A stretch of DNA of 64,000 bases, from assembly GCF_900105785.1 (NCBI RefSeq), contig NZ_LT629799.1:2046001-2110000 (forward strand). The letters run 5' to 3'. A model generated the notes under the pieces. The model searched no databases. It was not told where the DNA came from and was given only the letters and a program-made list of their open reading frames with translations. Below are positions 35,479 to 60,310 of this stretch, piece by piece. Origin of the DNA: Microlunatus sagamiharensis (lineage in GTDB: Bacteria; Actinomycetota; Actinomycetes; Propionibacteriales; Propionibacteriaceae). Both the position numbers and the translations under genes were made by a program. The number at the start of each line of letters is the position of its first letter. Within the stretch, counting starts at the first letter, position 1.

Positions 35479-35574
35479 GCTCCCTGAGCTCGTCGAAGGG
35501 CCCGGAACGGGTCGGCGTCCGTGAGCCGAGAAGGACGCCGACCTCTTCGAGGCCCTTCGACAGGCTCAGGGAGC
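35479..35574. terminator. Large composite inverted repeat between convergent genes, built from the CCCTGAGC...TCGAAGGG repeat
   Basis: An outer pair (35479-35502 forward, 35551-35574 inverted) pairs GCTCCCTGAGC..TCGAAGGGCC with GGCCCTTCGA..GCTCAGGGAGC. A nested perfect 11-bp pair, GGTCGGCGTCC at 35510-35520 and GGACGCCGACC at 35533-35543, closes a 12-nt loop. The structure lies exactly between the convergent VOC gene and the minus-strand aminotransferase, and would serve as a bidirectional terminator. The outer arms are copies of a dispersed repeat. Confidence 0.72.
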
Positions 35575-35584
35575 GTCCGCGTCC

Positions 35585-35632
35585 GTCGACAGGCTCAGAG
35601 ACGGTCCTCGCCCTTCGACAGGCTCAGGGAGC
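35585..35632. repeat. Two further inverted copies of the dispersed CTTCGACAGGCTCAGGGAGC repeat
   Basis: GTCGACAGGCTCAGAGA (35585-35601, degenerate) and CGCCCTTCGACAGGCTCAGGGAGC-like sequence (35610-35632) repeat the right arm of the neighbouring structure. They end 6 nt before the aminotransferase stop codon. The same unit returns at 39982-40035 and 48018-48108. Confidence 0.8.
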
Positions 35633-39367: not shown

Positions 39368-39988
39368 GTCGTCTACGAGCGCGACCGCGGCTGGTACACC
39401 CTCGAGCCCTTCAGCGAGCCGGAGGTCTTCGACTTCCCGGGCGGCATCGGGCCGGTCGAGTGCGTCCACGTGGAGCACGAGGAGGTGCTCCTCATGCCGC
39501 GCTGGCTCGACGTCGACAAGGTGACGTTCAAGTACGGGCTCGGCACCGAGTTCATCGACGTGCTCAAGGCGCTGCACAAGGTCGGGCTGGACAGGACGGA
39601 CCCGGTGGACGTCAAGGGCGTGCGGGTCAGCCCGCGGGACGTGGTCGCCGCCTGCCTGCCCGACCCGGCGACGCTGGGCGACGCGATGTCGGGCGCCACC
39701 TGCGCGGGGCTCCTGGTGACCGGCACCGGGAAGGACGGCCGGCCGCGCCGCGTCTACCTCTCCCACGTCGTCGACAACGCCGACTCGATGCGCCTCGACG
39801 GGGCGCAGTGCGTGGTCTGGCAGACCGCGATCAACCCCGTCGTCGCCCTCGAGCTCCTGGCGACCGGCGCCTGGACGGGCACCGGCGTCCTCGGCCCGGA
39901 GGCCTTCGACGCGGTCCCCTTCCTCGACCTCCTCGCCTCCCCCGACGGCTACGACTCCCCCTGGGAGCTCAACGAGCTGGAGCCCTGA
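39368..39988 (+). pseudogene. 5'-truncated remnant of a saccharopine-dehydrogenase-family gene
   Basis: The plus-strand frame runs from just after an in-frame TAG (39365-39367) through VVYERDRGWYTLEPFSEPEV, FDFPGGIGPVECVHVEHEEV and LLATGAWTGTGVLGPEAFDA to a stop at 39988. This is the C-terminal half (about 206 codons) of the roughly 400-residue saccharopine-dehydrogenase-like proteins that often accompany APC/GABA genes in actinobacteria. The N-terminal NAD-binding half is missing, and no start codon lies before the first conserved residues; internal GTG 39470 would give a 172-aa fragment only. The fragment begins 74 bp from the APC permease start, suggesting a deletion joining the two. Possibly still translated, but not as a dehydrogenase. 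Confidence 0.72.
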
Positions 39989-40035
39989 GCCTGTCGGAGG
40001 GACCGGCCAACGCCCCCTGAGCCAGTCGAAGGGCC
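39982..40035. repeat. Two direct copies of the dispersed CCCTGAGCCTGTCGAAGGG repeat
   Basis: GCCCTGAGCCTGTCGGAGGGA (39982-40002) overlaps the stop codon of the remnant, and CGCCCCCTGAGCCAGTCGAAGGGCC (40011-40035) follows in the same orientation. They lie in the 166-nt gap before the first CaiB gene. The gap also holds TAGCCT (40113-40118), a possible -10 for that gene. Confidence 0.8.
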
Positions 40036-40154: not shown

Positions 40155-41294
40155 GTGCTCGACCCCGAGGACCTCCCGCTGCACGGGACCGTCGTGCTCG
40201 ACTTCAGCCAGTTCCTCGCCGGACCGGTCGCGGCCCTCCGGCTCGCGGACCTCGGCGCGCGGGTGATCAAGGTCGAGCGGCCGGTGACCGGCGAGATCGG
40301 GCGCACGCTCGCCTTCGCGGGCCGCTGGATCGACGGCGACACCGCCTCCTTCCACGCGATGAACCGCAACAAGGAGGCCGTGGTCGCCGACCTCAAGGAC
40401 GCCCACGACCTCGCCCTCGTGCTCGACCTCGTCCGCCGTGCCGACGTGCTGCTCCACAACTTCCGCCCCGGCGTCATGGAACGCCTCGGGCTCGACCACC
40501 GCACGGTCGCCGCGCTCAACCCCGGCCTCGTGTACGCGAGCGCGTCCGGCTACGGCGCCGACGGGCCGTGGGCCGGCCGACCCGGCCAAGACCTGCTCGC
40601 CCAGTCGGTGTCCGCGCTCCCCTGGGTCAGCGCGCCGGCTGAGCGCCCGGTGCCGGTCGGGCTCTCGCTCGCCGACCACCTGCTCAGCTGCCACATCGCC
40701 CAGGGCGTCGTGGCGCTCCTCCTGCGTCGCGCCCGGACCGGCCTCGGCGGCCTCGTGGAGACGAGCCTCCTCGAGGGCATGCTCGACCTCCAGCTCGTCG
40801 GCCTGACCACCCGGCTCAACGCCACGACACCCACGCAAGAGCCGCAGGGCGAGGCCACGGACAGCAGCCCCACCACCGTCTCCGGCCTCTTCGCGACCGC
40901 CGACGGCTGGGTCGCCGTGACCGCGGCGCGCGACGCCCTCGTACGCCTGCTCGGCCCGTCGTCCGGCGGGGACGAGCAGCTGTCGGGGCTCCTGCGCGCC
41001 CGGACCACCGACGCGTGGGTCGAGGCGCTCGACGCCCCCGGGGTGTGGTGCTCGCCGGTGCTCACGCTCAAGGAGCTGCTCGCCCACGACGCGTTCGAGG
41101 CGGTCGGCATGACGCAGACCGTGCAGCGCGAACGCCCCGACGCGGAGCCCGTGCCGATCCGGACGACCCGCAGCCCGATCCGCATCGACGGCGAGCGGCT
41201 GCTCAGCACGCGCGGCGCGCCGCGGCTGGGCGCGCAGGGCCGGGTGGGCACGAGCACGGTGCTGACCGACGCCGAGGTGACCCGTGGAGGCTGA
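40155..41294 (+). CDS. CaiB/BaiF (class III) CoA transferase, first of a related pair
   Basis: 379 aa from GTG 40155, with GGGAGG 6 nt upstream. It opens LHGTVVLDFSQFLAGPVAAL and continues RLADLGARVIKVERP and NRNKEAVVADLKD, nearly identical to the CaiB gene 5 kb downstream. The likely nucleophilic Asp is Asp146 in GRPGQDLLAQS. The C-terminal part is about 25 residues shorter than in the paralogue and diverges around LFATADGWVAVTAARDALVR. It overlaps the LacI gene by 11 nt. CoA is moved between carboxylic acids; substrate unknown, but context is sugar-acid catabolism. The pair may form a heteromer or act on two sequential acids (inference). Confidence 0.87.
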   Translation: MLDPEDLPLHGTVVLDFSQFLAGPVAALRLADLGARVIKVERPVTGEIGRTLAFAGRWIDGDTASFHAMNRNKEAVVADLKDAHDLALVLDLVRRADVLLHNFRPGVMERLGLDHRTVAALNPGLVYASASGYGADGPWAGRPGQDLLAQSVSALPWVSAPAERPVPVGLSLADHLLSCHIAQGVVALLLRRARTGLGGLVETSLLEGMLDLQLVGLTTRLNATTPTQEPQGEATDSSPTTVSGLFATADGWVAVTAARDALVRLLGPSSGGDEQLSGLLRARTTDAWVEALDAPGVWCSPVLTLKELLAHDAFEAVGMTQTVQRERPDAEPVPIRTTRSPIRIDGERLLSTRGAPRLGAQGRVGTSTVLTDAEVTRGG

Positions 41295-42351
41295 GGGCGA
41301 GCCGGGGAGCGAGCGCAGGAGGACCAGCGCGACCGCCGCGGTGACCCTCTCCGAGGTCGCGAGCCGGGCCGGTGTCTCGGTCTCCGCGGTCTCCAAGGTC
41401 CTGCGCGGGACGGCGGCGATCCGCGTCAGCCCGGAGACGCGGCAGCGCATCCTCGACGCGGCCCAGGAGCTGCGCTACCGGCCCAACTTCGCCGCCCGGG
41501 CGCTCCAGGCGGCGCGCACCCAGGTGCTGGGGCTGGTGGTCCCCGACCTGACCAACGCCCTCTTCACCGAGCTCATGCACGGCGTGGAGGACGGTGCCGC
41601 GGCCCACGGCTACACGGTGCTGCTCGGCCGGCTCGACACCGACCGCCCCCAGACCGAGGTCATCGCCCGGCTGCTCGGCGAGGGCCGCGTCGACGGCCTG
41701 GTCCTGCAGGCCACCGACGGGGTGGACCCCGACAGCCTCGACCAGCTGCTCGACCCGCGGGCCGCCGTGGTCCTCATCAACTCCGTCGCCTCCGGGCGCG
41801 CCTCCTCGGTCACCGTCGACGACGTCGGCGGCGCTCGGACCGCCACCGAGCACCTGGTCTCCCTCGGCCACACCCGCATCGCCCTGGCCGGCGGGCTGCC
41901 GACGTCGTACACGGCTCAGCGCCGGCGCCGCGGCCACCAGGAGGCGATGCGGGCGGCCGGGCTCGTGCCGCGCGAGGACCACGAGACGGCGCTCGGCTAC
42001 ACCGCGGAGCAGGGCCGCGAGGCGCTGCGGCGGCTGCTCCGGCTCGACCCGCGACCGACCGCCGTGGTCGTCGCCAACGTCAACGCCGCTATCGGCCTGC
42101 TCGCCGAGGCGCACGCGCAGGGCGTGGACGTGCCCGGGGAGCTGTCGGTCGCCACCGTCCTCGACTCCTGGACCGCGGAGAACACCTGGCCGCCCCTCAC
42201 CGCGGTGCGCATGCAGTTCTACGCGATGGGCGAGCGCGCGGTCGCCAGCGTGGTCCGGCGCCTCGAGGACGGGGCCATGACCGAGGAGGTGGTCCTCGAC
42301 CCGCCGCCCGAGCTGGTGGTCCGCGGCTCGACGGTGCCTCCGAGGACCTGA
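41284..42351 (+). CDS. LacI-family regulator of the CaiB/deoxysugar-acid operon
   Basis: 355 aa. HTH and hinge: TLSEVASRAGVSVSAVSKVL, RGTAAIRVSPETRQRILDAA, YRPNFAARALQ. Effector domain: LGLVVPDLTNALFTELMHGV, VDGLVLQATDGVDPDSLDQL and ELSVATVLDSWTAENTWPPL. GTG 41284 overlaps the preceding CaiB stop by 11 nt. A near-perfect LacI palindrome overlapping a promoter lies directly downstream (42398-42409), in front of the Gfo/Idh gene, so it should repress that operon until a pathway sugar acid appears. Confidence 0.92.
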   Translation: MEAEGEPGSERRRTSATAAVTLSEVASRAGVSVSAVSKVLRGTAAIRVSPETRQRILDAAQELRYRPNFAARALQAARTQVLGLVVPDLTNALFTELMHGVEDGAAAHGYTVLLGRLDTDRPQTEVIARLLGEGRVDGLVLQATDGVDPDSLDQLLDPRAAVVLINSVASGRASSVTVDDVGGARTATEHLVSLGHTRIALAGGLPTSYTAQRRRRGHQEAMRAAGLVPREDHETALGYTAEQGREALRRLLRLDPRPTAVVVANVNAAIGLLAEAHAQGVDVPGELSVATVLDSWTAENTWPPLTAVRMQFYAMGERAVASVVRRLEDGAMTEEVVLDPPPELVVRGSTVPPRT

Positions 42352-42375
42352 GGCGCTCGGCCGTCGTGGCGGTCG

Positions 42376-42414
42376 TTGACCTGGACCATCTGACCGGTCT
42401 AACGTTTGATCACG
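42376..42414 (+). promoter_or_regulatory. Promoter and overlapping LacI-type operator for the 42.5-51.5 kb operon
   Basis: TTGACC (42376-42381) and TCTAAC (42398-42403) are spaced 16 nt. The -10 is embedded in TCTAACGTTTGA (42398-42409), a palindrome with one mismatched pair centred on CG, typical for LacI-family operators. ACGTTTGATCACG (42402-42414) recurs exactly at 59116-59128 in the other sugar control region. Repressor binding here would block RNA polymerase. Confidence 0.6.
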
Positions 42415-42461
42415 TCGGCGCCGACCCTCGGTGCCGCCCGCGAACCCGCGAAGGAGCCACC

Positions 42462-43610
42462 GTGCCGCCGTCCAGCCCCGCGGGCCCGAGCGGCCTGCCG
42501 GAGCTCGAACCGCACCCCGGCTACCGCCTCGTCCTGCCGGACCACCCCCGGCCGGTCGTGCTCGTCGGCGCCGGGGGGATCGTCCGCGACGCGCACCTGC
42601 CGGCGTACGCGAAGGCGGGCTTCACCGTCGCCAGCCTCACCGACCTGGACCTCGACCGCGCCCACGCGCTCGCGGAGGCGTACGGGATCACCGAGACGTA
42701 CGGCTCGGTCGCCGACGCGGTCGCGCACGCCCCGGCCGACGCGGTCTACGACGTGGCGCTGCCGCCGGAGGCGCACGTCGGCGTGCTCGAGGCGCTGCCC
42801 GACGGCGCCGCCGTGCTGCTGCAGAAGCCGCTCGGCAACGACCTCGCCGACGGCGTCCGCACCCGCGAGGTCTGCCGTCGCAAGGGCCTCGTCGCCGCGG
42901 TCAACACCCAGCTGCGCTTCGCTCCGTACGTCGCCGCCGCGCGCGAGCTGATCGCGGCCGGGACGGTCGGCGAGCTCTACGACCTCGAGGTCCGGGTCTC
43001 GGTGAACACGCCGTGGGAGATGTTCCCCTACGTGCTCGACCTCCCCCGCCTCGAGATCAACATGCACAGCGTCCACTACCTCGACCTGGTCCGGTCGTTC
43101 CTGGGCGACCCGACCGGCGTCTCGGCGGTGACCGTCCGGCACCCGACCAAGACCGTCGCCAACACCCGCTCCGACATCGCGCTGACCTACGGCGACCGGC
43201 CGGTCCGCGTGGTCGTCTCGACCAACCACGACCACCACTTCGGCGAGCCGTACGAGGAGAGCTTCGTCAAGTGGGAGGGCACGCGCGGCGCCGTCCGCGC
43301 GCAGCTCGGCCTGCTGCTCGACTACCCGCGCGGCGGCGAGGACCGCCTCGAGGTCGTCACCGACGACCGGCTCGATCAGGGCTGGCGACCCGTGCCCTTC
43401 GAGGGATCGTGGTTCCCCGACGCGTTCATCGGCTCGATGAGCGTGCTGCAGCGCTACCTCGAGGGCTCGATCCCCTCGCTCCCGACGTCGGTCGACGACG
43501 TCTTCCGCACTATGGCCGTCGTCGAGGCGGCCTACCGCTCGGCCGCCTCCGGCGGCGAGCCACCCCCGTACGACGCTGATCGCATCACAGTCGAAGAAGG
43601 AGCACGATGA
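42462..43610 (+). CDS. Gfo/Idh/MocA-family oxidoreductase
   Basis: 382 aa. GTG 42462 is chosen for its AAGGAG ribosome site; the upstream frame has none. The Rossmann N-terminus is PVVLVGAGGIVRDAHLPAYA; the sugar-dehydrogenase EKP motif appears as LLQKPLGNDLADG (QKP instead of EKP, catalytic Lys kept). The C-terminal domain has EINMHSVHYLDLVRSFLGDP and FVKWEGTRGAVRAQLGLLLD. These enzymes oxidise or reduce sugars and sugar acids with NAD(P). Its substrate might be a deoxyhexose or an aldonic acid in the pathway. Its stop overlaps the FAH-gene ATG by 4 nt. Confidence 0.86.
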   Translation: MPPSSPAGPSGLPELEPHPGYRLVLPDHPRPVVLVGAGGIVRDAHLPAYAKAGFTVASLTDLDLDRAHALAEAYGITETYGSVADAVAHAPADAVYDVALPPEAHVGVLEALPDGAAVLLQKPLGNDLADGVRTREVCRRKGLVAAVNTQLRFAPYVAAARELIAAGTVGELYDLEVRVSVNTPWEMFPYVLDLPRLEINMHSVHYLDLVRSFLGDPTGVSAVTVRHPTKTVANTRSDIALTYGDRPVRVVVSTNHDHHFGEPYEESFVKWEGTRGAVRAQLGLLLDYPRGGEDRLEVVTDDRLDQGWRPVPFEGSWFPDAFIGSMSVLQRYLEGSIPSLPTSVDDVFRTMAVVEAAYRSAASGGEPPPYDADRITVEEGAR

Positions 43611-44479
43611 GACTCGCCCGCCTGGGAGCGCCCGGGGCCGAGAGGCCCACGGTCGTCGTCGACGGCACCCACCACGACCTGCGGCCGGTGCTGGACGAGC
43701 TCGGGGTGACCGACGTCGGCCCGGCCTTCTTCGCCGCCGGCGGGCTGGACCGGGTCGCCGCGGCGGTGGAGGCGGGCACGCTCACCAAGCTCGTCGGCGC
43801 CGCAGACCTGCGCGTCGGCGCCCCGCTGGCGCGCCCGGGCAAGGTCGTCTGCATCGGGGTCAACTACCGCGACCACGCGGCCGAGAGCGGCATGGCGACG
43901 CCGGACGAGCCGGTCGTGTTCATGAAGGACCCGAGCACCGTCGTCGGCCCGTTCGACGAGGTGCTCGTGCCCGTCGGCTCGACCAAGACCGACTGGGAGG
44001 TCGAGCTCGGCGCGGTGATCGGACGGACGGCGCGTTACCTCGGCTCGCCCGACGAGGCGAGGGCCTGCGTGGCCGGCTACGTCGTCTCGCACGACGTCTC
44101 CGAGCGCGAGTTCCAGCTCGAGCGCGGCGGGCAGTGGGACAAGGGCAAGAGCTGCGAGACCTTCAACCCGCTCGGGCCCGAGCTGGTCACGGCCGACGAG
44201 GTCGGCGACCCCCAGGCGCTGCGCCTGACGCTGTCGGTCAACGACGTCCTGCGCCAGGACGGCACCACCGCCGACATGGTCTTCGGCGTCGACCACATCG
44301 TCTGGTACCTGAGCCAGTTCATGGTCCTGGAGCCCGGCGACCTCATCAACACGGGCACGCCGGCGGGGGTCGCCCTCGGCCTGCCCGACAAGCCCTACCT
44401 CAGAGCAGGAGACGTCGTGGAGCTCGAGATCACCGGCCTCGGCCGCGCCCGCCAGACCTTCGCGCAGGCGACCCGATGA
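43607..44479 (+). CDS. Fumarylacetoacetate-hydrolase-family enzyme, probable 2,4-diketo-3-deoxy-L-fuconate hydrolase
   Basis: 290 aa. FAH-domain signatures are VVCIGVNYRDHAAESGM, the metal ligands Glu131/Glu133 in TDWEVELGAVIGR, VVSHDVSEREFQLERGGQW, GKSCETFNPLGPEL and LEPGDLINTGTPAGVALGL. The best-known homologues with this exact architecture hydrolyse 2,4-diketo-3-deoxy sugar acids (fuconate/rhamnonate) to pyruvate plus lactate. The neighbours (SDR, FucD-type dehydratase, lactonase) support that assignment over ureidoglycolate lyase. AGAAGGAG precedes the ATG. ATGA overlaps at both ends couple it to Gfo/Idh and SDR. Confidence 0.85.
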   Translation: MRLARLGAPGAERPTVVVDGTHHDLRPVLDELGVTDVGPAFFAAGGLDRVAAAVEAGTLTKLVGAADLRVGAPLARPGKVVCIGVNYRDHAAESGMATPDEPVVFMKDPSTVVGPFDEVLVPVGSTKTDWEVELGAVIGRTARYLGSPDEARACVAGYVVSHDVSEREFQLERGGQWDKGKSCETFNPLGPELVTADEVGDPQALRLTLSVNDVLRQDGTTADMVFGVDHIVWYLSQFMVLEPGDLINTGTPAGVALGLPDKPYLRAGDVVELEITGLGRARQTFAQATR

Positions 44480-45255
44480 GCCCCGTCGACCCGACCCGGG
44501 AGTACGCCGGGCTCGTCGCCGCGGTCACCGGCGGCGGCGCCGGCATCGGCCTGGCCGTCGTCGTGGAGCTCGTCGCGCGGGGCGCCCGGGTGGCCGCGCT
44601 CGACGTCGACCCGAGCGGAGCGCCCGACGGCGTGCTGGGGGTCCGCTGCGACGTGACCGACCGCGCGTCGGTCGACGCGGCGATCGCGACCGTCGTGCGC
44701 GAGCTCGGGCAGCTCGACGTCGTGGTCAACAACGCCGGGATCAGCGCGGTCGGCAGCGTGGAGGACCTCTCGGACGAGGACTGGAGGCGCGTCCTCGACG
44801 TCAATGTCGTCGGCATCGCCCGCGTCTCCGCGGCGGCCCTGCCCCACCTGCGCGACTCCGAGGCCGCGGCGATCGTCAACACCTGCTCCATCGCGGCCCA
44901 GGTCGGGCTCCCCCAGCGCGCCCTGTACGCCGCGTCGAAGGGCGCGGTGCTCGCGATGACCTTCGCCATGGCCACCGACCACGTCGGCGAGGGCGTCCGC
45001 GTCAACTGCGTGTGCCCGGGGACGGTGCACACCGGGTTCGTCGACCGGCTGCTGGCGACCTTCCCCGACCCGGAGAAGGAGCGCGCCGCCATGGGCGCGC
45101 GCCAGGCCATCGGCCGGATGGTGACGCCCGAGGAGGTCGCGTACGCGGTCGCGTACCTGGGCAGCCCGCGCGCCGGCTCCACCACGGGCACGGCGCTCGA
45201 CGTCGACGGCGGGGCCACCCACCTGCGTGCCCGCGCGGTGCAGAAGCGTGGCTGA
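44476..45255 (+). CDS. Short-chain dehydrogenase, probable 2-keto-3-deoxy-L-fuconate dehydrogenase
   Basis: 259 aa classical SDR. The cofactor motif is VTGGGAGIGLAV (TGGGAGIG at 18-25), with VVNNAGISAVGSVEDL. Catalytic Ser138-Tyr151-Lys155 lie in NTCSIAAQVGLPQRALYAASKG. The Asp at the end of strand 2 (ALDVDPSG) indicates NAD preference. The C-terminus has VNCVCPGTVHTGFVDRLLA and GTALDVDGGATHL, a pattern seen in 2-keto-3-deoxy-L-fuconate/rhamnonate 4-dehydrogenases. Located between the FAH hydrolase and CaiB, it would supply the diketo acid that FAH cleaves. Substrate assignment is by context and resemblance. Confidence 0.85.
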   Translation: MSPVDPTREYAGLVAAVTGGGAGIGLAVVVELVARGARVAALDVDPSGAPDGVLGVRCDVTDRASVDAAIATVVRELGQLDVVVNNAGISAVGSVEDLSDEDWRRVLDVNVVGIARVSAAALPHLRDSEAAAIVNTCSIAAQVGLPQRALYAASKGAVLAMTFAMATDHVGEGVRVNCVCPGTVHTGFVDRLLATFPDPEKERAAMGARQAIGRMVTPEEVAYAVAYLGSPRAGSTTGTALDVDGGATHLRARAVQKRG

Positions 45256-46408
45256 ACCGGCGCCGTCGGCGGTCCCCGCGCAGGACGAGCTCGACCTGCC
45301 CCTGGCGGGCGTGACGGTCCTCGACTTCAGCCAGTTCCTCGCCGGTCCCGTCGCCGCCCTGCGGCTGGCCGACCTCGGCGCCCGGGTGATCAAGGTCGAG
45401 CGCCCAGGCATCGGCGACCTGGGCCGCACCCTCGCCTTCGGCGGACGCATGGCCGGGGCGAGCTCGATGTCCTTCCACGCCATGAACCGCAACAAGGAGA
45501 GCATCACCGCCGACCTCAAGGACCCCGCCGACCTGGCGCGCGTCCGCGACCTGGTGGCCGACGCCGACGTGCTGATCCAGAACTTCCGGCCCGGGGTCAT
45601 GGAGCGCATCGGCCTCGATCACGCGTCCGTGGCGAAGATCAACCCGAAGATCGTCTACGGCAGCGTCAGCGGCTACGGCGACGCCGGCCCGTTCAAGGAC
45701 CGCCCGGGGCAGGACCTCCTCGCCCAGTCCATCGCCGGCCTGCCCTGGCTGAACGGCTCGCGCGACGACCCGCCCGTGCCCGTCGGGCTCTCGGTCGCCG
45801 ACCACCTGGCCAGCTGCCACCTCGCGCAGGGCATCACCGCCCTGCTCGTGCGCCGCTACCGAACCGGTCGCGGCGGGCTCGTGCAGACGAGCCTCTTCGA
45901 GTCGCTGCTCGACCTGCAGTTCGAGCTGCTCACGACGCGCCTGAACGACCCGACGGTCGCCGTGCAGCGCAAGGGCCCGCGCTCGGCGCACGCCTTCCTG
46001 CCCGCCCCGTACGGCATCTACCCCTGCTCCGACGGCTACCTCGCCATCGCGATGAACCCCGTCCCGACCATCGGCCGGCTGCTCGACCTGCACGTCCTGA
46101 CGTCGATGACCGACCCGAGCGCCTGGTGGGAGCGGCAGGAGGAGATCGAGGAGCTGATCGCCGAGCGGCTGCGCACGGACACGCGCGACGCGTGGCTCGC
46201 GGTCCTCGACGCCGAGGACGTGTGGTGCGCGCCCGTGCTGACGCTGGAGGAGCTGATCAGCCACGAGGGGTTCGCGGCGATCGCCATGACCCAGGAGATC
46301 AGCGCCGGCGACCTCACGCTCACCACGACGCGCAGCCCGATCCGCGTCGACGGCCAGCGGCTGACCAGTGCACGGCCGGGGCCGGAGCTCGGGCAGGACG
46401 ACCGATGA
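45248..46408 (+). CDS. CaiB/BaiF (class III) CoA transferase, second of the related pair
   Basis: 386 aa from GTG 45248 (8-nt overlap with the SDR gene; an in-frame GTG at 45227 is an alternative). Segments VTVLDFSQFLAGPVAALRLA and LGARVIKVERPG match the 40.2-kb paralogue closely. The probable nucleophile is Asp156 in DRPGQDLLAQS. Beyond residue 240 it keeps the full-length form (FLPAPYGIYPCSDGYLAIAM), unlike the shorter paralogue. Its stop overlaps the ATG of the signal-less SBP-like gene by 4 nt. Acceptor acid unknown; a product or side product of the sugar-acid pathway is possible (inference). Confidence 0.88.
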   Translation: MAEPAPSAVPAQDELDLPLAGVTVLDFSQFLAGPVAALRLADLGARVIKVERPGIGDLGRTLAFGGRMAGASSMSFHAMNRNKESITADLKDPADLARVRDLVADADVLIQNFRPGVMERIGLDHASVAKINPKIVYGSVSGYGDAGPFKDRPGQDLLAQSIAGLPWLNGSRDDPPVPVGLSVADHLASCHLAQGITALLVRRYRTGRGGLVQTSLFESLLDLQFELLTTRLNDPTVAVQRKGPRSAHAFLPAPYGIYPCSDGYLAIAMNPVPTIGRLLDLHVLTSMTDPSAWWERQEEIEELIAERLRTDTRDAWLAVLDAEDVWCAPVLTLEELISHEGFAAIAMTQEISAGDLTLTTTRSPIRVDGQRLTSARPGPELGQDDR

Positions 46409-47571
46409 CCACACCGTCGACCACGCTGCGCGGCATCACCTGGGAGCACGCCCGCGGCTACGACTGCCAGGTCGCGGCCGCCGCCGAGTACGAGCGCCGG
46501 ACCGGCGTGCGCGTGGAGTGGGAGGCCCGCTCGCTGCAGGCCTTCGCCGACGCGCCGCTCGAGGACCTCACGGCGCGCTACGACCTGCTCGTCATCGACC
46601 ACCCGCACGTCCCGCTGGCCGCGGAGGCCGGGCTCCTCGCCCGGCTCGACGGGGCCGGCCACGACGAGGAGCTCGCCGCGCTAGCCGCCGACTCGGTGGG
46701 CGCGAGCCACGCGACGTACGCGTACGCCGGCCACCAGTACGGGCTCGCGACGGACACGGCCACCCAGGTCGCGGTCCACCGGCCCGACCTGCTCCCCGAC
46801 CCCCCGACCGACTGGGACCGGGTGCTCGAGCTCGCCGACGAGGGCCGCGTCCTCTGGCCGGCCAAGCCGATCGACGCCTGGTCGAGCCTCTGCACGCTCG
46901 CGGCCGGACGCGGGACGCCGGTCGGCTCCGTCCCCGGCACGTTCCTCAGCGACGAGGACGCGGCACCGGTCCTCGACCTGCTCCACCGCCTGGCCGACCG
47001 CGTCCCGGACTGGTGCCTGTCGGCCAACCCGATCCAGGTCGCCGAGGCCCTCGCCGCCGACGACGGCGAGGTGTGGGCGTACGCGCCGCTGCTCTACGGC
47101 TACAGCAACTACTCGCGCGCCGGCTACCGCCCGCACCGGCTGCGCTACGTCGACATGCCGGCCGGGCCCCTCGGCCTCGCCGGCTCCCAGCTCGGCGGCG
47201 CGGGCGTCGCGGTGTCGAGCCGGGCGTCCGACGTCGACGCGGCCCGGGCGTACGCGCTGTGGGTCGCCTCGCCGGAGGTGCAGTCGGGCCTCTACTACGA
47301 CGCCGGCGGTCAGCCGGGCTACGGCGCCTCGTGGGACGACGACCGGCTCAACGCCGACTCGCTCGACTTCTTCCGCGGCACCCGCCGCACGGTCGAGCAG
47401 GCCTGGGTCCGCCCGCGCACAGCGGGTCTGATCGAGCTGCAGGACACGGTCTCGCCGTGGGTCACCGAGACCCTCCGCGGCGAGCTGGACGACGAGACGC
47501 TGCTGCGGCGCGCGAACGAGCTGGCCGCTCGCCTGCTCCTCGCCGAGGACGCGACAGGTGAGGACGCATGA
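46405..47571 (+). CDS. Cytoplasmic solute-binding-protein-like protein (no signal peptide), first copy
   Basis: 388 aa with the fold pattern of family-1/8 extracellular solute-binding proteins: [60 protein letters not shown] and [20 protein letters not shown]. The N-terminus [13 protein letters not shown] enters the fold directly: no basic-hydrophobic signal, no lipobox. It overlaps the CaiB stop and the MaoC start by 4 nt each, so a cytosolic role is likely. No permease is nearby. It may bind a pathway intermediate or CoA-transferase substrate and act as a carrier, sensor or enzyme subunit (speculation). Databases would call it an ABC binding protein, which may mislead. Confidence 0.78.
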
Positions 47572-48017
47572 GGACCGAGGACCGCTACTTCGAGGACTTC
47601 CGCGTCGGCGAGAGCCGCACGTCGGTCGGGCGGACGATCACCGAGACCGACGTCGTCATGCACGCCGGGCAGACGGGCGACTTCTTCCCGCACCACATGG
47701 ACGCGGAGTGGATGAAGACGCAGCCCGCCGGCCAGCGGATCGCCCACGGCACGTTGATCCTCGCCGTCGCCGTCGGCATGACCGCGACCGACATCAACCC
47801 GCAGGCGATGTCGTACGGCTACGACAAGATCAGGTTCATCAAGCCGGTCTTCATCGGCGACACGATCACGGTCACCGCGGAGATCACCGAGCTGAGTGAT
47901 CACAAGAAGAGGCCCGAGCAGTACGGCTACGTGCACGAGCTCGTCACCGTGACCAACCAGCGCGGCGAGACGGTCATGGTCCTGACCCACCTCTACCTGA
48001 CGAACAAGCGCGGATGA
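47568..48017 (+). CDS. MaoC-family (hot-dog fold) hydratase/dehydratase
   Basis: 149 aa, the single hot-dog form. The hydratase motif with the catalytic Asp and His is [17 protein letters not shown] (Asp38 and His42 or His43). [19 protein letters not shown] and [20 protein letters not shown] are conserved MaoC segments. Homologues include mesaconyl-CoA/(R)-enoyl-CoA hydratases. Placed between two SBP-like genes and behind CaiB, it probably hydrates an enoyl-CoA made by the transferase (inference). The start overlaps the SBP-like gene by 4 nt. Confidence 0.88.
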
Positions 48018-48108
48018 CGCTCCCTGAGCCGGAGGCGCTGCCTGAGCCTGTCGAAGGACGAGAAGCGCTCCCTGAGCCCAAGACGTTCCCTGAGCCTGTC
48101 GAAGGGCC
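48018..48108. repeat. Array of four direct copies of the dispersed CCCTGAGCCTGTCGAAGG repeat
   Basis: The unit occurs at 48018-48032 (truncated), 48035-48060, 48065-48079 (truncated) and 48084-48108. Copies alternate short and full, as if a two-unit block had duplicated. The array fills the MaoC/second SBP-like gap and begins right at the MaoC stop. All are in the same orientation, so they do not form the simple hairpin seen at 35.5 kb. Confidence 0.82.
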
Positions 48109-48113
48109 ACGAA

Positions 48114-49322
48114 GTGATTGACGTCGGAGACCACAGCGGCGCCCCGCTGCGCCTCCTCGGCCGCGACTTCGACGGCTTCCGCCGGGCGGTGTCCGCCCAC
48201 TCCGCCGCCTGGCCCGCCGGCACGGTCGACGCGACCTGGCTCGGCCTGCCCGGGCTCGAGGCCGCGGTCCTCGGTCCCGGACCCGCCGACGCCGACCTGC
48301 TCGTCGTCCCCGCCGACTGGCTGCCGGCCCTGGCCGCGAGCGGCCGCGTCCGGGCGCTGACGCCGTACGTCAGCGCGAACCCGCCCGAGGGCTGGCCCGA
48401 CGCGTGGTCGCCCTCGTTCCACGACGGGATCACGTGGGGCGACGACGTCTACGGCCTGCCGTTCCACGACGGCCCGCAGCTGCTGTTCACCCGCCCGTCG
48501 CTCCTCGAGGCGCACGGCCTGCGTCCGCCGTCGGCGTGGTCGGAGCTGCTGGCCGTGGCCGGAGCGCTATACGAGCCCGACGCCATTGCCGGAACGGTGC
48601 TCGCGGGTGCACCGGACGGCCACAACAACGTCTACGACCTGGTCCTGCACCTGCGCCGGTTCGGCGGCGACCTGGTCGACGCGGACGGTCGGATCACGCT
48701 CGACACCGACGCCATGCGGGCCGCGCTGACCTTCCTGCGCGAGGTCGTCACCACCCTCGTCAGCCCGGACGCCGCGCGGATGGACAGCAACGACAGCGGC
48801 TTCGCCTTCGCGGCCGGACGCGTGGCCGTCGCCGTGAACTGGGCCGGGTACGCCGCCCTCGCCGCGGCGGGCGCCGTGGCCGACGACTTCGCGTGCGCCG
48901 TCGCACCGACCCACGACGACGGCTCGCCGACCGTCACCGTGAACGCCTTCTGGGTCACCTGCGTCAGCGCGGCCTGCGCCGACCCGGACCGCGCCTGGGA
49001 CTACCTGCGCCACGCGGCTTCGGCGGCGATGGACCTCGAGACCACCCGCGCGGGCGCGTCCGGGGCGCGACGCAGCACCTGGGCCGACCCCGAGCTGCTC
49101 CGCGCACACCCCGAGCACGCGCTCTTCGAGCGGGCGCACGACCACTCCCGCCCGCTGCCCCGCGTGCCCGAGCTGCCCGCTCTCGTCGGCGTGCTCAACG
49201 AGCTCGTCGACGCCGTCGTCTGGCGCGGCGAACCGCTCGGACCCGCCCTCGCCGTCGCCGACGCGTCTGCGGCCGCCCTCGACCAGCACGCCCCCGTCCG
49301 TCCCTCCAGGAGCACCCCATGA
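48114..49322 (+). CDS. Cytoplasmic solute-binding-protein-like protein (no signal peptide), second copy
   Basis: 402 aa, SBP-like: [80 protein letters not shown] and [20 protein letters not shown]. The N-terminus [19 protein letters not shown] lacks a signal peptide or lipobox, so it stays in the cytosol. It differs from the first copy but plays the same role in gene order. GTG 48114 has no clear ribosome site and lies directly after the repeat array. Its stop overlaps the dehydratase ATG by 4 nt. Function unknown. Confidence 0.77.
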
Positions 49323-50659
49323 CCCGTATCGTCTCCGTCGACGTCGTCGACCTCCGCTTCCCGACCTCGCTGTCGCTGGACGGTTCGGACGCCATGAACA
49401 AGGACGCCGACTACTCCGCGGCGTACGTCGTCCTCCGCACCGACGAGCCCGGGCTCGCGGGCCACGGCTTCACCTTCACCATCGGGCGCGGCAACGACGT
49501 GTGCGTCCTCGCCGCGGAGCACCGCGCCGCGCCGCTGGTCGGACGGGACGTCGACGCGCTCGTCGGCGACCTCGGCGGCGTCTACCGCGAGCTGGCGTCG
49601 GACTCGCAGCTGCGCTGGCTCGGCCCGGACAAGGGCGTCGAGCACCTGGCCATGGCCGCGGTGATGAACGCCGTGTGGGACCTCGCCGCGCGCGTCGCCG
49701 GCAAGCCGCTGTGGCAGCTGCTCGTCGACATGGACCCCGAAGCGCTCGTCGACACCCTCGACCTCACCTACCTGAGCGACGTGCTGACGCGCGACGAGGC
49801 GATCGCCATGCTCGCGTCGTCGATGCCCCAGCGGGCGGAGCGCGTCGCCGACCTCCAGCGCACCGGCTACCCCTGCTACACGACTTCGGCGGGCTGGCTC
49901 GGCTACTCCGACGACAAGCTGCGCCGCCTCGCCACCGAGGCGCTCGAGCAGGGCTTCCGGCACGTCAAGCTCAAGGTCGGGGCCAACCTCGAGGACGACG
50001 TCCGCCGCTGCTCGATCGCGCGCGAGGTCATCGGCTGGGACGCCAACCTGATGATCGACGCCAACCAGGTGTGGGACGTCCCGCAGGCGATCGAGTGGGT
50101 GCAGGCGCTCGCGGAGTTCAAGCCGCTGTGGATCGAGGAGCCGACCAGCCCGGACGACGTGCTCGGCCACGCCGCGATCCGCAAGGCCGTCGCGCCGATC
50201 GGCGTCGCGACCGGCGAGCACGGCATGAACCGGGTGCTGTTCAAGCAGCTCTTCCAGGCCGAGGCGATCGACTTCTGCCAGCTCGACGCCGCCCGGCTCG
50301 CCTCGATCAACGAGATCGTCCCGGTCTACCTGATGGCTCTCAAGTTCGGCGTCCCCGTCTGCCCGCACGCCGGCGGCGTCGGGCTCTGCGAGCTCGTGCA
50401 GCACCTGTCGGTGTTCGACTACGTCGCCGTCTCCGGCACGACCGAGCACCGCGTGACCGAGTTCGTCGACCACCTGCACGAGCACTTCGCCGACCCGTGC
50501 ATCGTCTCCGACGGGGCGTACGTGCTGCCCTCGCAGCCCGGCTTCAGCGCCGAGATCCACGAGGCGTCGGTCGCCGAGTACGCGTTCCCGGACGGGTCGT
50601 TCTGGAAGGGACGCCAGGCGGCGGACGACGTCGTCGACGCCGCGGGGTCGATCCGGTGA
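49319..50659 (+). CDS. L-fuconate dehydratase-type enolase-superfamily enzyme
   Basis: 446 aa, full FucD length. The catalytic KxK is HVKLKV (Lys217, Lys219). Metal ligands are Asp247 (MIDANQVW), Glu273 ([10 protein letters not shown]) and Glu300 (ATGEHGMN), and the catalytic His350 is in [36 protein letters not shown] and [18 protein letters not shown] are specific to the fuconate-dehydratase group of the superfamily. It removes water from L-fuconate to give 2-keto-3-deoxy-L-fuconate; other six-carbon acid sugars are possible. Overlaps its neighbours by 4 nt at both ends. Confidence 0.92.
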
Positions 50660-51507
50660 TCATCGACACCCACCTGCACGTGTGGGACCTGGACCGCTCG
50701 CCCTACTCGTGGATCGACCGGGCCGTCCCGCCGTTCAACCGCACCTTCACGTTCGACGAGGTCGCTCCGCAGCTGGCGGAGAACGGCGTCGACGCCGTCA
50801 TCCTCGTGCAGGCCGACGACGACGACCGCGACACCGACCACATGCTCGAGGTCGCCGCGGAGCGGCCCGAGGTCGTCGGTGTGGTGGCGTTCGTCCCGCT
50901 GCACGAGCCGGCCCGGGCCGCGGTCCGCCTCGAGCAGCTGCTCGAGAACCCGTACGTCGTCGGCATCCGCAACCTCACTCACGACCGACCCGATCCCGAC
51001 TGGGTCCTCCGCCCGGACGTCGACGAAACCCTCGGACTCATCGAGCAGGCTGGCCTGCCCTGGGACCACGTCGCCGTGGTCCCCCGCCACCTCGAGCACG
51101 TGGCCACGATCAGCGAGCGCCACCCGGACCTGCGCATCGTGATCGACCACCTGGCCAAGCCGCCGATCGGCGAGGCATCGCGCGAGCCCTGGTGGAGCCT
51201 CATCGAGATCGCCGCGCAGAACCCGCTCGTCCACGCCAAGATCTCCGGCCTCTACCCGGGCGCAGACCCCGCGTCCTGGACCGTCGAGGGACTGCGACCC
51301 TTCGTCGACCGGGCGCTCGAGGTGTTCGGCCCGAGCCGGCTCATGTACGGCGGGGACTGGCCGGTGTCGGCACCGGCAGGCGGCTACGGAGCGGTCCTGA
51401 ACGGTCTGCACGAGGTGCTTACCGCGCTGCCGAGGCCGGAGACCGACGAGGTGTGGTCGGGTGCGGCTCGTCGCACCTACGGGCTACCGCGAGCTCTCCC
51501 GCTCTGA
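50656..51507 (+). CDS. Amidohydrolase-family L-fuconolactonase-type lactonase
   Basis: 283 aa. It starts [19 protein letters not shown] with the HxH metal motif (His6, His8). Other signatures are [26 protein letters not shown] and [17 protein letters not shown]. The COG3618 group contains L-fucono-, L-rhamnono- and 2-pyrone-4,6-dicarboxylate lactonases; context favours L-fuconolactone. GTG 50656 overlaps the dehydratase stop as GTGA. It opens the lactone made by the sugar dehydrogenase, supplying fuconate for FucD. Last gene of the operon. Confidence 0.88.
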
Positions 51508-54278: not shown

Positions 54279-55727
54279 GTGCCTCCTTCCCGGCCGGACC
54301 ACCGTCTCGACCTCACCCGCCTGCCGGAGCCCGTCCTCGACGCAGCACCGGACCTGGTCGCGCTCTACTGGACGGCCTGGGAGACGGCGTGGACCCACGT
54401 CGTCGAGCAGGCCGGCGTCCCGCGCTCGCCCTACATGGACGAGGGCTTCGACCCCGACGTCATCTGGATCTGGGACACCTGCCTGATGACCCACTTCTGC
54501 AAGTACGCGCCCGAGGACTTCCCGGGCATCGAGAGCCTGCAGAACTTCTACGGCCCGCTGCACGACGGCGCGCCCTCGGCGCTGCAGATCCAGCACCCCG
54601 ACAACCCGCCGCTCTTCGCCTGGGCCGAGGAGGAGTACGTCCGCCACACCGGCGACCTCGAGCACGTGGCCCGGCTGCTGGACGCCGGCTACCTGCAGCG
54701 GCACTTTGCCTGGTTCGACACGGTCGCCCCCAGGACGGTCCTGCCCGTCTCGGTCATGCCGACGACGATCGAACGGCGCCCGGAGGGCTACCGCTGGGGC
54801 GCCATCCAGAGCGGCATGGACAACACGCCCCGGGCCGGCGAGGCCACCTGGTACGGCAACTCCCGGGGCGGCATCCTGTGGCTCGACGCCCTGGCCCAGC
54901 AGGCGCTCTCCGCGCAGAGCATCGCCCGCCTCGCCCGGCTCGTCGACCGGCCTGCGCTGGCCGAGGAGTACGAGGCCCGGCACGCGTCGCTCTGCGCCGA
55001 GCTCCAGCACCACTGGGACGACGAGGACCAGACCTTCTACGACCGCGTGGAGACCGCGCCCTTCCCGTTCCGGCGCGTGGTCACGCCGGCGGCTTACTGG
55101 CCGTTGCTGGCCGGGGCCTGCAGCCCGGAGCAGGCGCACGCGCTGGCCGATCTCCTTGCTGACCCGGGCAAGTTGGGCGGCCCGGTGCCGTGGCCGTCGG
55201 TCGCCCGGGACGACCCGGCCTTCCGCGCCGACGGGCAGTACTGGCGCGGCGGCGTCTGGGTGCCGCTGGCGTACATGAGCGCTCGCGCCTTGGCCGACCA
55301 CGGCCACGCGGGGCTGGCGCGGACCGCGTCGCGGGCCCTGCTGGACCACATGGCCGCGACCTGGTCAGGCTGCTCCCCGCAGACGATCTGGGAGGCGTAT
55401 GCGCCCGTCGAAGCGAGGCCTGCGACGGACAAGGACGGTCGGACCACGGTGCGGCCGGCGTTCTGCGGCTGGTCGGCGCTCGGACCGATCTCGATGCTGA
55501 TCGAGCACGTGCTCGGCTTCCGCGTCGACGCCACCGCGCAGACGGTGCACTGGGACCCCGACGGGCCGGGTCGTCAGGGCATCCGTCGGCTGCGGTGCGG
55601 CCCCGCCACCCTCGACGCGGTGGCCGAGGGCGGCGAGGTCGTCCTCGACACGGACCGGTCGATCACGCTGGTGCTGTCCGGCTGCCGGATCGAGCTCGAC
55701 GCCGGGCACCACGTGCTCAGCCCTTGA
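54279..55727 (+). CDS. Cytoplasmic (alpha/alpha)6-barrel glycosidase, MGH1/GH63-like
   Basis: 482 aa, no signal peptide. PYMDEGFDPDVIWIWDTCLM, ESLQNFYGPLHDGAPSALQI, WGAIQSGMDNTPRAGEATWY, FRRVVTPAAYWPLLAGACSP and SGCSPQTIWEAYAPVEARPA match the mannosylglycerate-hydrolase-1/GH63-type barrel; the Asp in SGMDNTP and the Glu in WEAYAP are likely catalytic. It probably cleaves an oligosaccharide or glycoside delivered by the adjacent importer. GTG 54279 comes 7 nt after TACGGT (54266-54271), suggesting a leaderless transcript. Its 3' end overlaps the convergent permease gene by 11 nt. Confidence 0.8.
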   Translation: MPPSRPDHRLDLTRLPEPVLDAAPDLVALYWTAWETAWTHVVEQAGVPRSPYMDEGFDPDVIWIWDTCLMTHFCKYAPEDFPGIESLQNFYGPLHDGAPSALQIQHPDNPPLFAWAEEEYVRHTGDLEHVARLLDAGYLQRHFAWFDTVAPRTVLPVSVMPTTIERRPEGYRWGAIQSGMDNTPRAGEATWYGNSRGGILWLDALAQQALSAQSIARLARLVDRPALAEEYEARHASLCAELQHHWDDEDQTFYDRVETAPFPFRRVVTPAAYWPLLAGACSPEQAHALADLLADPGKLGGPVPWPSVARDDPAFRADGQYWRGGVWVPLAYMSARALADHGHAGLARTASRALLDHMAATWSGCSPQTIWEAYAPVEARPATDKDGRTTVRPAFCGWSALGPISMLIEHVLGFRVDATAQTVHWDPDGPGRQGIRRLRCGPATLDAVAEGGEVVLDTDRSITLVLSGCRIELDAGHHVLSP

Positions 55728-56667
55728 CCGCTCCCACCGTCTGGCCGCGCATCAGGAAGCGCTGCGCGCCGAGGAAGACGATCAGCAGCGGCAGCATGCT
55801 GAGGAACGTCGCCAGGGCGAGCTGGGGCATGTAGAGCTTGACGTTCAGCCCGGCCGCGACGGTCGGGTTGAACAGCGGGCTCGCGCCGATCAGCTGCTGC
55901 AGGCCGATCGAGACCGTGTTGTTGTTCTGGTTGGAGCTGAGCAGCGCGAGCGGCAGGAAGAAGTTCGTCCAGTTGGCCACGAAGGAGAAGAACGTGACCA
56001 GCGCGACGGCCTGCTTGGAGATCGGGACCGCGACCTTCGTGAAGATCGAGATCTCGTTCAGCCCGTCGATGCGCGCCGCCTCCACCAGCTCGGGCGGCAT
56101 GGTGGTCATGAAGTGGATGTAGGCGAGGTAGGTCCCGAAGGGGAAGAACCCCATGATCACCACGACCGGCCACAGCTGCCCGACCGCGCCGATGGCCGCG
56201 ACCTCGAGGAAGAGCGGGATGACCAGGACCGTGTTCGGCATGACCATCGCCAGCAGCGTCACGAAGAGCAGCACCCGCCGGCCGCGGAACCGCAGCCGGG
56301 CCATCGCGTAGCCGGCCGGGATCGCGGCGACGACCGCGATCAGGGCGCCGCCGACGGAGACGACCAGCGAGTTGGCCATCCAGCGGACGAACAGCCCGCC
56401 GCTGCCCGGCCCGAAGCCGTTGACCTGCGACCAGGAGTAGACGGCGTTGCTCCACGACACCCCGCCGAGCCCCAGGAAGCCGCCCTGCCCGGCCGCCACC
56501 TCGTCGGCGTCGCGGAAGGACATGGCGACGAAGCCGACGATCGGGAACACGAAGGCGGCCGCGACGAGGAGCATCGTGACGATGCGGGCCAGACGGTTCA
56601 GCGACATCGGACGACGACCGGCGCCCGTGCGCGCACTCGCCTCGGGAGTCGCTACGGCGACGGCCAT
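55717..56667 (-). CDS. Carbohydrate ABC transporter permease, MalG type
   Basis: 316 aa with six helices: VTMLLVAAAFVFPIVGFVAM, VVSVGGALIAVVAAIPAGYA, FVTLLAMVMPNTVLVIPLFL and others. EAA loop: MPPELVEAARIDGLNEISIF. C-terminus RFLMRGQTVGAVKG. ATG overlaps the partner permease stop by one base (TGATG). Part of a CUT1-type importer with the lipoprotein at 57.6-59.0 kb; no ATPase in the cluster. Confidence 0.93.
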   Translation of the reverse strand: MAVAVATPEASARTGAGRRPMSLNRLARIVTMLLVAAAFVFPIVGFVAMSFRDADEVAAGQGGFLGLGGVSWSNAVYSWSQVNGFGPGSGGLFVRWMANSLVVSVGGALIAVVAAIPAGYAMARLRFRGRRVLLFVTLLAMVMPNTVLVIPLFLEVAAIGAVGQLWPVVVIMGFFPFGTYLAYIHFMTTMPPELVEAARIDGLNEISIFTKVAVPISKQAVALVTFFSFVANWTNFFLPLALLSSNQNNNTVSIGLQQLIGASPLFNPTVAAGLNVKLYMPQLALATFLSMLPLLIVFLGAQRFLMRGQTVGAVKG

Positions 56668-57647
56668 CAGTTGGTCTCCTCGCTGAACAGCCCGCTCTTG
56701 AAGACGATGATCAGGCCGATCCCCAGCGTGATCGCGAGCAGGATGAGCGACATCGCGGCGGCGGCCGGGAAGTTGTAGTTCGAGAACGCGAACGCGTAGC
56801 CGAGCTGGCTCGGCGAGTACTGGTCGGGCAGCGCGTTGGACGCCACCTGGTCGAGCAGCTGCGGCTCCAGGAAGAGCTGGAAGCCGTACGCGAGGTTCAT
56901 CAGGGCGGCGTAGCCGATCCACGGCCGGATGATCGGCAGCTTGACGTCCCACGCCACCCGCCAGGGACCGGCGCCGTCGATCTGCGCGGCCTCGAGCACG
57001 GCGTCGTCGATGCCGTTCAGGCCGCCGTTGACGATCACGATCCAGGTGCCGACGCCCTGGAAGAAGAGCATCGCCGCGAGGATGAAGGACAGGTTGTTCC
57101 CCGAGACGACGACCGACTTGATGTCGGTCAGCCCGAGCGCGTTCCAGAAGCCCTGGATCGGCGACGAGCTCGGGTTGAGCAGGTAGACCCAGAGCACGAA
57201 GTTCGCCACGCCGGCCAGCGCACCGGGCACGTAGTAGATGAACCGCATGGCGTTGCCGAAGCGGCCCGGGCTCGCGTGCACGAGCAGCGCCAGGCCGACG
57301 ACGCCGATCATCATGATCGGCAGCCACACGACCAGGACGCTGGCGATGTTGCCGAAGGTCCGCAGGAAGCGGAAGTCGGTGACGACGGTCTCGAAGCTCT
57401 TGAGCCCGCCGAAGCCGACCGCCGGGTTGAGCGGGGTCGGCGGGGTCTGCAGCGCGGTCACGAAGGCGTAGCCGATCGGGATCACCCCCGCGATCAGCAG
57501 CAGGACGACGTACGGCGCGCAGAGCGTCCACGCGCCGGCCGTCTCGACGCGCCGCGAGGTGCGTCGAGACGGCTGCCCGGGCGGGCCCGTGGTGACGGCC
57601 TCGGCCGTCACCACGGAACCCGTCGAGGCCGAGGAGGCCACGGTCAT
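56667..57647 (-). CDS. Carbohydrate ABC transporter permease, MalF type
   Basis: 326 aa, N-terminal cytoplasmic tail then six helices (AGAWTLCAPYVVLLLIAGVI first). EAA loop: IDDAVLEAAQIDGAGPWRVA. MRFIYYVPGALAGVANFVLW and FQLFLEPQLLDQVASNALPD are typical. ATG 57647 overlaps the SBP stop by 4 nt. It pairs with the MalG-type protein. Substrate should be the sugar degraded by the neighbouring AKR/FucU enzymes. Confidence 0.93.
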   Translation of the reverse strand: MTVASSASTGSVVTAEAVTTGPPGQPSRRTSRRVETAGAWTLCAPYVVLLLIAGVIPIGYAFVTALQTPPTPLNPAVGFGGLKSFETVVTDFRFLRTFGNIASVLVVWLPIMMIGVVGLALLVHASPGRFGNAMRFIYYVPGALAGVANFVLWVYLLNPSSSPIQGFWNALGLTDIKSVVVSGNNLSFILAAMLFFQGVGTWIVIVNGGLNGIDDAVLEAAQIDGAGPWRVAWDVKLPIIRPWIGYAALMNLAYGFQLFLEPQLLDQVASNALPDQYSPSQLGYAFAFSNYNFPAAAAMSLILLAITLGIGLIIVFKSGLFSEETN

Positions 57648-59002: not shown

Positions 59003-59041
59003 TGACTCTCCTGTCACGCGCCAGGTCGGCGAACCCGCCGG

Positions 59042-59101
59042 GCGAAACGTTTTGCGTTCTGGACGAGAGGGAACCTACTCACGCCGCTCCCGCACTGTCA
59101 A
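59042..59101 (-). promoter_or_regulatory. Minus-strand promoter and LacI operator for the ABC importer operon
   Basis: On the minus strand TTGACA (59101-59096) and TAGGTT (59077-59072) are spaced 18 nt. GCGAAACGTTTTGC (59042-59055), a palindrome with one mismatched pair centred on CG, lies just downstream of the predicted transcription start. It should be bound by the LacI regulator at 60.3 kb, whose second site is on the other side of this region. Confidence 0.68.
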
Positions 59102-59115
59102 CGACTCTGGTGCCG

Positions 59116-59185: not shown

Positions 59186-59223
59186 TCTTTGGGGAGCGCG
59201 CCTCTCCGCCCGAAGGAGTCCCT

Positions 59224-60306: not shown

Positions 60307-60310
60307 GGAC

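Follow-up and report, generated by a model that had tools for sequence, protein, structure and literature searches.

Solute-binding proteins (SBPs) of ATP-binding cassette (ABC) sugar importers, in families SBP_bac_1 and SBP_bac_8 (such as the trehalose/maltose-binding protein 1eu8, LpqY, SmoF, and MalE3), are the closest known relatives of SBP1, a protein encoded in a 64,000-nucleotide (nt) stretch of the Microlunatus sagamiharensis genome (contig NZ_LT629799.1, positions 2,046,001 to 2,110,000; hereafter, the window). The SBP1 gene lies between those of a class III coenzyme A (CoA) transferase, CaiB2, and a MaoC-type hydratase, in an operon with gene families of oxidative L-fucose/L-rhamnose catabolism. 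That pathway runs through a dehydrogenase, a lactonase, an MR_MLE dehydratase, an SDR, and an FAH hydrolase and, to our knowledge, proceeds without a CoA-transferase, a hydratase, or a cytosolic SBP. A CoA-transferase is paired with a MaoC hydratase in the itaconate-type systems RipA/RipB and Ict/Ich, which, as far as we know, come without an SBP and without sugar genes.

Our data suggest, with a probability that we put at roughly one half, that SBP1 represents an SBP family that has left transport and works in the cytosol with CaiB2 and a hydratase (MaoC or crotonase) in deoxysugar-acid catabolism. The genes at the center of this proposal, including that of a second SBP-fold protein, SBP2, are:

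45248-46408, + strand: CaiB2, class III CoA-transferase (CoA_transf_3), with Asp185, His248, Gln155, and Trp326
46405-47571, + strand: SBP1, signal-less SBP-fold protein (Pfam SBP_bac_8, 4.3e-17), with an ATGA overlap at both ends
47568-48017, + strand: MaoC-type hydratase, active-site motif GDFFPHH
48018-48113, + strand: 96-nt gap between MaoC and SBP2, with two exact copies of the repeat CTGAGCCTGTCGAAGG
48114-49322, + strand: SBP2, second signal-less SBP-fold protein, GTG start (Pfam SBP_bac_1, 3.9e-24)

An earlier note on this DNA had claimed that it encodes two SBP-like proteins without a signal peptide, and this was borne out for both. Pfam and predicted structure place each in the SBP fold, and no hydrophobic N-terminal stretch was found in SBP1 or SBP2 of the window. 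AlphaFold predicts a complete sugar-SBP fold for SBP1 (pLDDT 96) and for SBP2 (pLDDT 86), and the modeled fold appears highly conserved. The matches in the Foldseek and VIA lists were exclusively binding proteins or tag fusions of them, a result with which enzymes sharing the fold remain compatible.

The comparison with relatives was based on 114 SBP1 sequences from 116 loci (L031-L146); L074, in which the frame stops after 33 residues, and L127, at a contig edge, were omitted. All but five were distinct (109/114), the identical pairs being L050/L068, L052/L069, L054/L070, L056/L073, and L058/L094. A plain protein search supplied loci L031-L066, and a scan of genome contigs (one genome per species) with a pattern built on the N-terminal motif supplied L067-L146, so that motif conservation in the latter is partly selected; that scan produced 316 pattern hits, 313 of them relatives, and the best 80 of these 313 were used as loci. 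Genes in these loci were predicted with a simple caller, and mostly six first-look candidates were scored per genome. The start of SBP1 was taken as the nearest start codon ahead of the motif and, for counts of overlaps, as the upstream start with the best-fitting overlap. Each genome sample stayed within one order or class, and related genomes do not count as independent.

The absence of an export signal extends to these homologues. In none of the 114 did an upstream in-frame start within 60 codons yield a hydrophobic N-terminus, and the SBP1 of L129 alone barely reached the hydrophobicity threshold (1.61 vs. 1.6), in its own first 30 residues. The importer SBPs of these loci served as a control, and 55/58 had a hydrophobic N-terminus (33/35 in a smaller control). 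In 83/114 loci, the SBP1 start had an overlap of exactly 4 nt with the stop of an upstream frame (100 codons or longer), and in 99/114 it lay within 9 nt of such a stop. Mis-set starts and hidden signals were considered and rejected, because no homologue offered a suitable upstream start and 99 starts were pinned by upstream stops. SBP1 therefore probably stays in the cytosol, as judged from sequence.

Linkage to a CoA-transferase and a hydratase is the second line of evidence. A CaiB gene lay within 400 nt of SBP1 on the same strand in 96/114 loci (80 upstream and 16 downstream), and within 8 kilobases (kb) in 109/114. A hydratase gene, either MaoC or crotonase, was present within 8 kb in 106/114; the crotonase (Pfam ECH_1 in the four examples tested) occurs in Kribbella-type and some other loci, and the two hydratases have unrelated folds. 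The earlier expectation of a module conserved across genera thus held for CaiB-SBP-hydratase, which is conserved across phyla too, and failed for the full order CaiB-SBP-MaoC-SBP, which is rare, SBP2 being found in seven members. The Martelella locus has the order Gfo-CaiB-SBP-MaoC; next to these genes are those of a ugp-type importer, which has an SBP of its own, of an amidohydrolase, and of an L-rhamnose mutarotase, as well as one annotated as L-fuconate dehydratase. LacI, GntR, or IclR genes are frequent neighbors of SBP1, and other neighbors encode RhaM, an RraA-like aldolase, and metallo-beta-lactamase-like and aldose-epimerase-like proteins. In L059, L060, and L062, SBP1 is directly followed by an AMP-forming ligase and then a major facilitator superfamily (MFS) transporter (by Pfam in L059 and L062); CaiB and crotonase lie 3 kb off.

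SBP1 also diverges together with its neighbors. Over 72 loci, the correlation of its pairwise distances was 0.898 with CaiB distances and 0.765 with permease distances; in other subsets, the correlations were 0.932 for Amidohydro_2 (54 loci), 0.852 for MR_MLE, 0.801 for Gfo, and 0.686 for MaoC. Among 293 genomes of the order, SBP1 was present in 31 (E 1e-20). A close relative of CaiB was found in 28 (15 with the window type and 20 with another type, seven having both), all 28 of which had SBP1; in the three other SBP1 genomes, the CaiBs were more distant relatives and lay about 3 kb off. Because most of these genes neighbor each other, co-occurrence and linkage are not independent here.

The SBP1 family spans Actinomycetota and Alphaproteobacteria, with named relatives in Kribbella, Nocardioides, Microbacterium, Mesorhizobium, Shinella, Rhodobacteraceae, and Alginatibacterium. 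Relatives lie on plasmids of Sinorhizobium, Azospirillum, Roseibium, and others, the copy of Sinorhizobium meliloti 1021 being on pSymB at 732456-733583. The family has motifs of its own, an N-terminal W-x-H-x-R, and Asp-His-Pro; the N-terminal motif was kept in all 36 loci from the plain protein search. In 88 sequences from two phyla, part of them found by the N-terminal-motif pattern, 25 columns were fully invariant, including W13, H15, R17, W39, D60, D65, Y105, D117, Y233, Y236, Q303, and R336 (88/88). In loci whose importer SBPs share five columns conserved in at least 97% of sequences, SBP1 keeps 52 such columns. Based on strand ends and topology in the predicted structure, the invariant residues appear to lie near strand ends, as cleft residues would. 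Database records label the family as extracellular solute-binding or ABC transporter substrate-binding proteins. The suggestion that the system is undescribed stands, in that no description of the family was found in the open-access literature on SBPs that are cytoplasmic or lack a signal, in combination with CaiB, MaoC, or L-fuconate.

CaiB2 belongs to PF02515 (3.7e-97) and matches the structure 9br7 (2.1e-52). In one study of class III CoA-transferases (PMC3720670), catalysis is attributed to Asp173 of YfdE, with His233 opposite, and UctC D177A is inactive; another describes the same aspartyl-CoA chemistry in Mct, at Asp165 (PMC9813914). Asp173 of YfdE corresponds to Asp185 of CaiB2 and was kept in 95/95 adjacent CaiBs with a residue at that column (one more was gapped) and in 30/30 CaiBs from relatives' genomes, some of them of the SBP1-linked type themselves. 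His233 corresponds to His248 and was kept in 88/95. CaiB2 is therefore like YfdE, UctC, formyl-CoA transferase, and SUGCT in keeping the covalent Asp and the His233 equivalent, and the SBP1-linked CaiBs are unlike the references in having Gln155 and Trp326, where three reference enzymes have Tyr and Pro, and a putative SBP-fold partner. Gln155 and Trp326 occur as well in the CaiB of L165, which has no adjacent SBP1, in CaiB1, and in CaiB2 genes of operons lacking SBP1.

A loss of the catalytic Asp from SBP1-linked CaiBs was entertained and rejected: the Asp column of “VDxS” had been mistaken for the nucleophile, and the true nucleophile column is that of Asp185. The “VDxS” column varies in the SBP1-linked CaiBs (E 43, Q 42, K 6, T 3, and R 1) and holds Asp in 10/30 CaiBs from 13 relatives' genomes.

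The active-site motif of MaoC hydratases, GDxxPxH, was present in 61 of 85 MaoCs nearest to SBP1 in their loci; most of the other 24 belonged to a second MaoC type, and the rest were broken or distant matches. A longer MaoC-type protein (166-190 amino acids (aa)) without GDxxPxH was observed beside SBP1 or CaiB in L100 (7424-7996) and in similar alphaproteobacterial loci. From their residues, CaiB2 and the window MaoC look active, which supports a CoA-ester step.

SBP2 is of narrower distribution. It was matched in 7/287 genomes at E 1e-20 (two of the matches weak and partial) and in 3/345 at E 1e-25, and is rare and clade-restricted. Its seven family members (the window, L047, L048, L055, L059, L067, and L074) share 36-80% identity with the window protein and have many invariant columns. 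No export signal was apparent in the seven when their N-terminal contexts were judged by eye, no start codon being chosen for L074.

The plus-strand operon of the window extends over 40155-51507, in the order CaiB1, LacI, Gfo/Idh/MocA, FAH hydrolase, SDR, CaiB2, SBP1, MaoC, SBP2, MR_MLE dehydratase, and Amidohydro_2. Its remaining genes, and the importer that lies beyond it, are:

40155-41294, + strand: CaiB1, class III CoA-transferase family, nucleophile Asp column kept and His233 equivalent replaced by Glu
41284-42351, + strand: LacI-family regulator (Pfam)
42366-43610, + strand: Gfo/Idh/MocA oxidoreductase, true start possibly further in
43607-44479, + strand: FAH-family hydrolase, like 2,4-didehydro-3-deoxy-L-rhamnonate hydrolase, below the NCBIfam cut-off (296 vs. 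500 bits)
44476-45255, + strand: SDR dehydrogenase (Pfam)
49319-50659, + strand: MR_MLE enolase-superfamily dehydratase, a superfamily-level call (best NCBIfam score 133 vs. 500 bits)
50656-51507, + strand: Amidohydro_2-family protein, probable sugar lactonase
55717-59002, - strand: ABC sugar importer, permeases 55717-56607 and 56667-57647, lipoprotein SBP 57644-59002

Translational coupling by ATGA, proposed in the earlier note for the whole set, was found as 4-nt overlaps of CaiB2/SBP1 (46405-46408), SBP1/MaoC (47568-47571), and SBP2/dehydratase (49319-49322), and not for MaoC and SBP2, which are 96 nt apart in the window and overlap by 4 nt in the relative L048. The repeat CTGAGCCTGTCGAAGG has seven copies with at most one mismatch, in three clusters (window 35554-35627, 39985-40032, and 48042-48105), where chance would give none; the last cluster sits between MaoC and SBP2. 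Just 5' of the operon, a 172-aa open frame (39470-39988) matches the C-terminal part of the saccharopine dehydrogenase C-terminal domain only (PF16653, profile positions 104-261) and may be a fragment. A third CaiB-family gene was observed on the minus strand at 485-1675; a search of the genome (E 1e-20) gave three, the others being CaiB1 and CaiB2.

The likeness to oxidative L-fucose/L-rhamnose catabolism is one of families: dehydrogenase, lactonase, dehydratase, SDR, and FAH members are all present in the window, the lactonase and dehydrogenase roles being assumed. It is also seen in RhaM of L100, FucU of the window, and the annotated L-fuconate dehydratase of Martelella. At the equivalog level, the window differs from that pathway, as both the FAH hydrolase and the dehydratase fall short of their NCBIfam cut-offs; the dehydratase had been called FucD-type, and of this the MR_MLE superfamily stands. 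CaiB2 and MaoC repeat the enzyme pairing of the itaconate systems, and the resemblance of the window MaoC to RipB/Ich is weak (56 vs. 340 bits), far below the equivalog cut-off. Another SBP of S. meliloti, SMc02774, is the high-affinity L-fucose binder (PMC3454389), L-fucose is listed among S. meliloti carbon sources (PMC4207669), and L-fucose transporter neighborhoods around Herbaspirillum HSERO_RS05250 include L-fucose dehydrogenase, lactonase, and dehydratase (PMC11378808).

The operon had been described as lacking a permease. This is correct in the strict sense, but the importer at 55717-59002 carries its own lipoprotein SBP, and is, from sequence identity (74% for the lipoprotein SBP and 70 and 79% for the permeases), likely the counterpart of an importer that lies inside the operon of L048. 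Permease-like genes were found within 8 kb of SBP1 in 83/114 loci, so adjacent permeases, which had been named as grounds for abandoning the idea, are largely the rule. The idea survives, however, because 58 of these 83 loci have a separate importer SBP (none was identified in the remaining 25), 55 of the 58 with a hydrophobic N-terminus, and SBP1 is additional to the importer there. A second deoxysugar-like block at window 54279-62868 comprises an MGH1/GH63-like hydrolase, the importer, two aldo-keto reductases, a LacI-like regulator, and FucU. A further importer-like set was observed at 6218-9356, with a lipoprotein-like 427-aa protein (6218-7501) and permeases (7561-8403 and 8403-9356), and is adjoined by a LacI gene (9353-10375).

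We propose that the sugar would enter through the importer and be converted by dehydrogenase and lactonase to a sugar acid. The conserved cleft of SBP1 would take up this acid, or a product of it, and pass it to CaiB2 or scavenge for it; CaiB2 would form the CoA ester of the acid, on which MaoC or crotonase would next remove or add water. SBP2 may be a second, clade-restricted cytosolic SBP with a similar binding job. The exact role of SBP1 as carrier or presenter is a tentative part of this scheme. A more elaborate version, which we regard as rather unlikely, has SBP1 and SBP2 as soluble subunits of a CoA-dependent sugar-acid pathway: CaiB2 would make an aldonyl-CoA, from which MaoC or crotonase (according to the stereochemistry at C3) would form a 2-keto-3-deoxy acyl-CoA by dehydration, with the SBP-fold protein presenting the acid to CaiB2. 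In this version, an SBP would, for the first time as far as we know, have been recruited to carry a substrate in the cytosol for CoA-ester metabolism.

Several results weigh against a partnership of SBP1 with CaiB2. Amidohydro_2 co-diverges with SBP1 more than CaiB does, and CaiB is thus not singled out. No CaiB was found in L061, L114, and L144, where the sequence extends about 8-9 kb to either side of SBP1; the two other loci without one within 8 kb, L103 and L122, have SBP1 near contig ends. None of the 114 SBP1s (276-433 aa from the start) is fused to a downstream domain, and in 99/114 an upstream frame stops at the start. The comparison of conserved columns between SBP1 and the importer SBPs used sets that are not divergence-matched (mean identity 0.49 vs. 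0.37). Six of 25 places with the second type of CaiB, all Kribbella-type, have no SBP1 within 1.5 kb, and at four of the six (L259-L262) tblastn over 20 kb found none. In L259 (8550-12194), L260 (8646-12304), and L262 (7265-10923), genes for SDR, CaiB, crotonase, and a lactonase-like protein stand in series without SBP1; in L261, SBP1, crotonase, and the lactonase-like gene are all missing. Genomes G239 and G247 have CaiB2 operons without SBP1, and G239 also a CaiB-crotonase pair (L258) without it. The operons of L259, L260, and L262 represent either a natural loss of SBP1 or a pre-gain state. Because such CaiB loci exist, SBP1 is not an obligate cis subunit of the CoA-transferase and is dispensable in cis. 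All eight genomes with these loci, which are related and not independent, hold SBP1 elsewhere, as would fit a diffusible protein.

SBP1 may instead be an enzyme itself, the two-lobed SBP fold being reused to catalyze a pathway step near the CoA-transferase or hydratase, much as in chorismate dehydratase MqnA, which we take to be an example of a cytosolic SBP-fold enzyme. We think this possible but somewhat unlikely: the many invariant polar and aromatic residues, with their cleft-like placement, and the universal N-terminal motif of the plain-search loci would suit it, but some CaiB-hydratase operons do without SBP1, and the fold matches that were listed include nothing but binding proteins and fusions with them, although a fold search cannot exclude catalysis. 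That SBP1 is a cytosolic sensor of an intermediate, tuning a regulator, the importer, or CaiB activity, seems quite unlikely. Dispensability in cis suits a trans-acting role and regulator genes are frequent neighbors, with SBP1 and LacI overlapping by 4 nt in L062, but these regulators come from several unrelated families, and a Pfam search of SBP1 detected neither a DNA-binding nor an output domain.

The loci with a permease and no identified importer SBP would be expected if SBP1 were an ordinary importer SBP, exported without a recognizable signal or from a mis-set start. Such an explanation is highly improbable given the pinned starts and signal-free upstream frames, the importers' own SBPs in 58 loci and in the window, and a co-divergence of SBP1 with CaiB that exceeds its co-divergence with the permease. 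A barely credible alternative is decay, with SBP1 and SBP2 as what is left of importer SBPs whose signals disappeared in this lineage; the rarity of SBP2 is as decay would have it, but SBP1 is conserved across two phyla with its 25 invariant columns, and the SBP2 family likewise retains many.

The labels “extracellular” and “ABC transporter” are misleading for a large family, as the 313 relatives recovered by the pattern scan indicate. With its SBP1 gene, S. meliloti 1021 offers a standard laboratory strain in which to test the role of the protein. If the proposed role of SBP1 as a partner of the CoA-transferase is true, the SBP fold would gain a cytosolic metabolic function beside transport, class III CoA-transferases would have a partner that has gone unrecognized, and deoxysugar catabolism would in part pass through CoA esters.

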